Below, in pieces: positions 3,065-40,724 of a stretch of 64,000 bases of DNA. The number at the start of each line of letters is the position of its first letter. Within the stretch, counting starts at the first letter, position 1. The notes under the pieces were generated by a model. The model was not told where the DNA came from, ran no database searches, and saw only the letters and a list, made by a program, of their open reading frames with translations. The position numbers and the translations under genes were made by a program. Origin of the DNA: Comamonadaceae bacterium (GTDB lineage: Bacteria > Pseudomonadota > Gammaproteobacteria > Burkholderiales > Burkholderiaceae_C); the NCBI GenBank assembly GCA_027488115.1, contig JAIYCG010000014.1:1-64000 (forward strand), in the 5' to 3' direction.

Positions 3065-3078
3065 ACCCTGAGACTCAC

Positions 3079-3113
3079 AAGGCCTGCACCCGATGCGGTT
3101 CAGGCCTTTTTTT
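3079..3113 (+). terminator. Rho-independent-like terminator after pufC
   Basis: aaggcctg (3079-3086) / caggcctt (3101-3108) followed by a T run. Confidence 0.8.
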
Positions 3114-3129
3114 ATTTGGAGATTCAGAC

Positions 3130-3840
3130 ATGCTTGCGCAACCATCAGCCAACAACAACGACCAAGTGGTCGTTTTGTTGTTGGCTGATATTGCGCAGTT
3201 ATCGCGACTGTGGGGTTGGACGCGAATTGTCAAAGGCCCACAAGGACTTCAAGACACGCCTGGTTTGCTGTTTTCAAAAGTCATGGGCAGTGGTTATGAG
3301 GGTGGCTTTGGACTGCGTCCCAGTCCTTCACGACAAGGCGTGTTTGGTTTGTTTGAATCATTGCAAACAGCCCAAGAATTCCTTGCAAGCTCCAGTTTGC
3401 TGCAGGATTACCAACAGCGCTCCGACGAATTCTTTTGGGTCATCCTCAAAACTTGGTCATGCCGGGGCAGCTGGGATGGCCAATCCCTTGATGTGTGTAC
3501 AGCACAACCCATCAAGGGCCCTGTGGCCGCGCTAACAAGAGCCTCCATCAGGCTGGCCAAAGCGCCCGCATTTTGGCGGCATGCACCTCCCTCTCAAAAC
3601 GCTTTAAACAATGCCAAAGGCTGCCAATTGGCAGTTGGCTTGGGGGAAGCGCCTTTTGTAAGGCAAGCTACTTTCACCATTTGGGACAGTGTGTCCGATA
3701 TGAATGCCTATGCACGCACGGGCGCGCACTTAGAAGCCATTCAAGAAGCTGCGCAAAACGATTACTTTTCTGAATCCATGTTTGCTCGATTTGTGCCCTT
3801 GCAAATGCAGGGCCAATGGCATGGCAAGGACTATGCCTAA
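3130..3840 (+). CDS. crtA: Spheroidene monooxygenase
   Basis: MLAQPSANNNDQVVVLLLADIAQLSRLWGWTRIVKGPQG...; RATFTIWDSVSDMNAYAR-like region; followed by crtD. Confidence 0.9.
   Translation: MLAQPSANNNDQVVVLLLADIAQLSRLWGWTRIVKGPQGLQDTPGLLFSKVMGSGYEGGFGLRPSPSRQGVFGLFESLQTAQEFLASSSLLQDYQQRSDEFFWVILKTWSCRGSWDGQSLDVCTAQPIKGPVAALTRASIRLAKAPAFWRHAPPSQNALNNAKGCQLAVGLGEAPFVRQATFTIWDSVSDMNAYARTGAHLEAIQEAAQNDYFSESMFARFVPLQMQGQWHGKDYA
3144..3189 (+). repeat. Long inverted repeat/hairpin inside the 5' end of crtA
   Basis: ATCAGCCAACAACAACGACCA (3144-3164) - AG - TGGTCGTTTTGTTGTTGGCTGAT (3167-3189); 21 bp complementary with a 2-nt TT bulge. Confidence 0.9.
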
Positions 3841-10600: not shown

Positions 10601-11426
10601 GCGAATCCAAATGTGCAGGCAAAACCGGAGGCACATGTGCTTCAAAGGCTGCAGGCGTTTCTGTCGTGTGATGTTTGCGAATGGCCCAACGCCACAATGC
10701 AGTGGTATCGAGTGGCAGAACCAACATCAAATGTTCAACAATGGCCAATGCCAACATGGTGCCCACCAAAACCGCACCCACCACTTGAGCGGGCGAGGTC
10801 ATGGCTTGGTTGCTAAAGTCGACCAAAACCCATAAACAGGCGCTGGCTGACACCACCGCAAAGGGGAAAAATGCATTCATACGGCGGCGCTTGAAAAAGC
10901 TTTGTAAATAGGCCAAATGCGCTGGCAAAAACTCTTCACTCAAATTGCGAACCCCAAAAAACAGGTTCAACTTGGCGCTGGTGCGCATGATCCACAGCAC
11001 CAAATAGGTTCCTGTGCCCACTTGGTTGGGGGCATCCCAAGTGATGAGCACAATGACCAAACCCACCAAGAGTATCGCCAACTCGTGCCACACCACCGCA
11101 TTGAAAGAGGCCACAAAACGCGGCCATCCCTTTGTGCTTTGTGAGATGGCTGTTTTTTGTGGCCCTGTGATCCAACCCGTGAGAAAACTCAGCTCATTCC
11201 AACCCCAAGCCAACAGAGCGCACGTGAATGCGCAGTAGGCCCCCGTGACACCGGTTTGTTGCGCGGTATGCGCCAATCCAGCCAGCGCACCAAGGCCAAG
11301 CGCTGTGGAAATGACCAAGCTCATGACGACCGCCGTGCGCGACATGCGATTTAAGAGAATCACGATACCTGTGCTAAACCACCAGATAAAAATCGCAAAT
11401 CCCAACGCAACGAAAGAGTCGGTCAT
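10575..11426 (-). CDS. puhE: Putative photosynthetic complex assembly protein (PuhE, DUF3623-like)
   Basis: Multi-TM protein with GWNELSFLTGWITGP...; position after acsF/puhC. Confidence 0.85.
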   Translation of the reverse strand: MTDSFVALGFAIFIWWFSTGIVILLNRMSRTAVVMSLVISTALGLGALAGLAHTAQQTGVTGAYCAFTCALLAWGWNELSFLTGWITGPQKTAISQSTKGWPRFVASFNAVVWHELAILLVGLVIVLITWDAPNQVGTGTYLVLWIMRTSAKLNLFFGVRNLSEEFLPAHLAYLQSFFKRRRMNAFFPFAVVSASACLWVLVDFSNQAMTSPAQVVGAVLVGTMLALAIVEHLMLVLPLDTTALWRWAIRKHHTTETPAAFEAHVPPVLPAHLDSHDKSLQVN

Positions 11427-40598: not shown

Positions 40599-40655
40599 CT
40601 CAGCCTAGTAGTTACCCCATCACCTTTGCTTGGCGGTCTGCTTAAGATGAATCAC

Positions 40656-40677
40656 AAAAGAACGGGCGTTCTTTTTT
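40656..40677 (+). terminator. Terminator-like hairpin after dacB
   Basis: aaaagaacg-gg-cgttcttttttatt. Confidence 0.6.
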
Positions 40678-40724
40678 ATTGCGTCTTTTAGCAAATCAAA
40701 ACAATTCATACAAAGAGGTGAAAG

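Follow-up and report, generated by a model that had tools for sequence, protein, structure and literature searches.

The question raised by this locus is whether the long inverted repeat at the very start of the crtA-like gene is kept for a role in the mRNA or is a by-product of mutation or of the encoded peptide. The gene lies at positions 3130 to 3840 on the plus strand of the window (the whole stretch of 64,000 nucleotides that was analysed) and encodes a protein of 236 amino acids, which was assigned to the spheroidene monooxygenase family on the basis of the NCBIfam model NF045923 and gene context. The protein is related to the CrtA family and its specific function is suggested by the gene context, as the match to the model (E 1.5e-48, 165 bits) is under the 300-bit equivalog cut-off. 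Betaproteobacterial CrtA of this kind is poorly covered by current models (165 vs 300 bits, no Pfam match for the protein). The first 11 codons of the gene form a variable N-terminal tail.

The start codon is separated from the pufC stop codon by 65 bases. This spacer contains an intrinsic-terminator-like stem-loop with a U-tract (3080 to 3113, plus strand), followed by a Shine-Dalgarno-like GGAG (3118 to 3121, plus strand) 8 nt upstream of the ATG, and a motif comparable to the latter is present in most relatives. In the relatives examined, the terminator is conserved upstream of crtA and sits directly between pufC and the Shine-Dalgarno motif. Its stem shows compensatory changes at three pairs across the family, the double changes keeping the pairing. 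No sigma-70 promoter for crtA was found by consensus at the pufC-crtA junction. Since the terminator lies ahead of crtA, this gene and those behind it need either read-through or a promoter that was not recognized here. The terminator flanks CUGAG.CUC and GGAG.UUCAG (3067 to 3128) can pair in the window, which would hide the crtA Shine-Dalgarno motif. An extended terminator stem of this type (UCUGAA:UUCAGA) was predicted in several species and rejected as a conserved element; it is not maintained in all of them, and in the alignment its pairing is lost without compensation in L006, L009, L012, L018 and others.

The hairpin at the crtA start is real as a predicted structure and exceptionally strong in the window species, a freshwater photosynthetic bacterium. 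With the ATG at 3130, ATCAGCCAACAACAACGACCA begins at 3144, i.e. at +15. The 5' arm of the core stem (ATCAGCCAACAACAACGACC, 3144 to 3163) lies within the codons of the variable tail, the apical loop AAGU occupies 3164 to 3167, and the 3' arm (3168 to 3189, with a 2-nt bulge at 3174-3175) encodes the conserved VVVLLLAD; all these elements are on the plus strand. An outer stem on the same strand (3134 to 3141 with 3191 to 3198) extends the helix. The predicted fold thus comprises 20 core pairs, a 4-nt loop, a 2-nt bulge and 8 outer pairs, 28 pairs in total, and the 15-nt arms 3144-3158 and 3175-3189 are 100% complementary. The fold energy predicted for +1 to +75 is -43.0 kcal/mol. When the region 3065-3250 was folded, as the sequence-only reading had proposed, its energy was -80.6 kcal/mol (z -6.2), and none of 200 dinucleotide shuffles was equally stable. 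That reading had placed the repeat correctly, behind the pufC terminator, and had given its sequence correctly as well; the outer stem had been missed.

The hairpin stands out from its surroundings. No other 70-nt segment on either strand of the window folds as stably (GC-corrected z -7.4), nor does any on the plus strand of 396 kb sampled from its own genome (z -6.7; about 332 kb were taken as stretches). By raw energy of +1 to +75, crtA ranks second of 268 putative gene starts, surpassed by a single GC-rich one. No second copy was found in the own genome, where the sole other match was the reverse complement of the hairpin itself (63 nt, 85%), and a repeat copy or mobile element was rejected as its source. 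No Rfam family was assigned, the best match being a microRNA model with 28.9 bits (98 are needed). An intrinsic or bidirectional terminator was rejected because no U-tract follows the stem: the full stem is flanked 3' by TTATCGCGAC on the plus strand and by GCATGTCTGA on the minus strand, and a terminator scan gave a single match, the inner stem followed by the tail TTGTTGTTGG, and this tail belongs to the outer helix. An assembly artefact is unlikely, since the tail length and frame equal those of close relatives.

In a genus search, crtA relatives were found in 62 of 90 genomes, including Limnohabitans sp. MMS-10A-178 and a Limnohabitans MAG from Lake Baikal. The CrtA proteins of the ten nearest species are 82-88% identical to that of the window. 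These species and an eleventh sister, L085, which is represented only by the 5' part of crtA and was left out of the tree, share with the window the ATG, a tail of 11 codons and the upstream terminator. In the crtA tree, the window and the ten full-length relatives fall on one side of a branch with support 81/90, the window forming its own early branch within the clade. All 12 clade members (the window and eleven sisters of the Limnohabitans group) have a hairpin at the crtA start with 21 to 28 pairs between the tail and the body of the gene. Those of the eleven sisters (21-26 pairs) are weaker than that of the window and interrupted by bulges; they share the apex, whereas the register of the 5' arm differs: L008, L011 and L012 pair through CAACAG/CTGTTG, for example, while L006, sister to L008, uses GCAAC/GTTGC.

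The sequence-only reading had named compensatory changes in relatives as the test of the stem. In the fixed register of the window, one pair changed on both sides, compared with 2.1 in shuffles (covariation score 0.111 vs 0.117), and RNAalifold found covariation at none of 12 pairs, which by that reading's own standard counts against the stem. Fixed-register covariation is missing because species differ in the register of the 5' arm. Tests that are independent of register point the other way. They covered the 12 clade members and the eleven next-nearest relatives, of which nine belong to the same genus and two lie beyond it (crtA and the terminator being present), and more distant CrtA sequences (45-49% identity) were left out.

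Native combinations of tail and body fold better than chimeras (p 0.0024, or 0.014 without the window), and random tails of the same codons fold worse in seven species, the window excluded (Fisher p 2e-4), although such combined p-values are too small and overstate the case, as the species share ancestry. When the chimera test was run over 67 crtA positions in the set that includes the window, no other position gave so low a score. Within the 3' arm, the synonymous codons chosen favour pairing in every one of the 12 clade members (p 0.001-0.12), and those in the tail do so in most of them. Among all ten-codon runs of crtA, synonymous diversity is lowest at codons 12-21, which cover the 3' arm (rank 1 of 148; p 0.013 against random codon sets), also when the window is omitted (rank 1 of 153, p 0.009). 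The chimera, synonymous-pairing and low-diversity signals are absent from the eleven next-nearest relatives, in which start-proximal pairing is, if anything, avoided. With register shifts allowed, the stem is retained beyond composition in 12 of 12 clade members, a count limited by shared ancestry. The evidence for clade-specific selection on the RNA of the crtA start in this Limnohabitans-like clade seems to be good but not conclusive.

The predicted effect on translation differs within the clade. In the window, opening the region from -13 to +15 costs 9.9 kcal/mol, compared with 9.7 kcal/mol for synonymous scrambles; the cost is unchanged because the strong stem begins at +15. In 10 of the 11 sister species, the cost is raised, by a mean of 4.9 kcal/mol over synonymous scrambles. 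For the whole clade, the mean increase is 4.6 kcal/mol (11 of 12 species), and it does not occur in the eleven next-nearest relatives. A stem that impedes initiation, as proposed by the sequence-only reading, is consequently not predicted for the window species, although it is for most of its sisters; an alternative fold, as a structural switch would require, was not seen. The wider notion of an RNA-level role gained comparative support in the sister clade from the chimera, random-tail and synonymous tests, in contrast to the specific block of initiation in the window.

The reading that we prefer, with a probability slightly below one half (about 0.45), is a clade-specific hairpin within codons 1-23 of crtA which would be kept by selection on the mRNA and act as a fixed brake on crtA translation. 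The unconstrained N-terminal tail would supply the 5' arm and pair with the codons of the conserved VVVLLLAD in the 3' arm. In most sister species, the hairpin would reach back over the docking site and the start codon and brake translation at ribosome docking. As the stem barely affects the docking site of the window, any effect there is expected on early elongation: the main stem from +15 would lie at the edge of the initiating ribosome and slow the first elongation steps. The setting of crtA, immediately downstream of the puf structural genes and their terminator, is suggestive: such a brake might keep the CrtA enzyme low in spite of this position. The predicted structure, its restriction to the clade and the synonymous constraint are shown; that the hairpin forms in cells and brakes translation, in which direction and to what end, is what we infer from them.

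In bacteria, structure at the translation initiation region can lower translation. The crtA hairpin resembles such structures as a start-proximal stem and in the raised docking-site opening cost predicted for most sisters; it differs in that the main stem of the window starts at +15 and does not raise this cost, and in having no known ligand, RNA or protein partner. With dnaX-type ribosome-pausing stem-loops (PMC8861025) it shares a stable stem-loop met by the translating ribosome, but neither a slippery sequence nor a frameshift product was recognized at the crtA hairpin. Against a translational brake, ribosomes unwind stems efficiently, and the stability of an mRNA stem alone does not predict ribosome pausing (PMC8861025). 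The missing fixed-register covariation, the unchanged initiation cost in the window and the chimera signal, which one other crtA position surpasses once the window is excluded, also speak against it. If the brake is real, a disposable N-terminal tail of a protein also supplies an arm of an mRNA structure, and pairing is conserved though neither the register nor individual pairs are, so that standard covariation screens would miss such cases. It would further illustrate the tuning of a low-dose carotenoid enzyme whose gene follows a photosynthesis operon.

The alternative that survives best is a mutational origin without function, in which template switching between short inverted repeats copied the 3' arm into the free tail and the RNA hairpin is a tolerated by-product. 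Quasipalindrome template switching can both generate hairpins and perfect them (PMC8794818), and it is also known to change coding sequence (PMC8604942). As in these cases, one arm of the crtA hairpin is conserved and the other, lying in the variable tail, is its near-perfect reverse complement, here including the flanking GCGCAA/TTGCGC. Two in-frame 3-nt changes of the window relative to L004 (ATCAACAGCC to ATCAGCC and CAACAATGACC to CAACAACAACGACC) each improve the pairing. Across all relatives, a template-switch alignment gained a median of 12 points over a linear one, compared with medians of 1.5-5.5 and single maxima of up to 8 at other positions; however, the gain against L004, the most similar relative, was just 8, which is within the null range. 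The crtA case also differs from known quasipalindromes in having no sampled close ancestor for a single event, and the clade's synonymous constraint points to something beyond mutation. Template switching alone leaves unexplained both the low synonymous diversity of the conserved arm and the absence of the signals from the next-nearest relatives. We regard template switching as a serious rival for the perfection of the window stem, and an origin by it without function as less likely than the brake. Template switching is compatible with selection: the perfection may come from templated mutation, and the pairing may be maintained by selection. A bolder proposal, rated as still more doubtful, is that aerobic anoxygenic phototrophs of one clade keep a register-free crtA brake in which the fast-evolving protein tail would repeatedly re-evolve pairing with the conserved codons downstream, partly by templated mutation, the function being conserved without conserved pairs. 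The natural variants of the twelve species form a ready comparison set for weighing selection against template switching as the source of hairpins.

A role in mRNA processing or stability appears improbable. The puf-crtA read-through RNA would be cut in the U/A-rich spacer and the hairpin would shield the 5' end of crtA, or the duplex would serve as an RNase III site, so that the lifetime of the crtA RNA would differ from that of puf. The stem is long and stands just behind the terminator and a U-rich spacer, and in Rhodobacter the segmental stability of puf mRNA is set by RNase E sites and hairpins (PMC6238624; PMC11354728). The strong Rhodobacter hairpins, which set the expression ratios of neighbouring genes (PMC6238624), likewise belong to a photosynthesis operon, but the puf hairpin is intercistronic, whereas the crtA hairpin lies within the coding sequence of a different gene, in a different bacterial class. 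Within a translated region ribosomes would open the stem, and the weaker, bulged stems of the sister species should be poor RNase III substrates.

Coding coincidence, by which the stem would be an accident of the peptide NNNDQVVVLLL with its mutually complementary runs of AAC (Asn), Asp, GTT/GTC (Val) and TTG (Leu) codons, is already disfavoured for the window and seems the least probable alternative: the codon compositions of tail and body are complementary and the apex GACCAAGTGGTC, present through most of the clade, follows from the Asp-Gln-Val-Val codons, but synonymous resampling from the codons of the same gene gave -25.8 +/- 4.3 kcal/mol for +1 to +90, compared with the native -46.9 kcal/mol (z -4.9, 0 of 500), permuted tail codons gave -27.7 kcal/mol (0 of 500 reached the native value) and random tails from the clade's own codons gave p 0.001. 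Codon usage and the encoded protein explain the apex alone and not the long stem, in agreement with the original remark that the encoded segment does not account for the symmetry.

The repeat had also been described as one of the longest in the window. This is accurate, as two imperfect inverted repeats with 20- and 21-nt arms (11109-11164 and 40644-40687) are longer and less perfect than the crtA arms; "most stable" is the stronger description. Elsewhere in the own genome, on contig C12, a very stable pair of hairpins (L097:15789-15865, GC-corrected z -6.6) was seen, in which the stem GATTTCGCAAACAGT/ACTGTTTGCGAAATC precedes a GC-rich one formed by CTGCACCC/GGGTGCAG.
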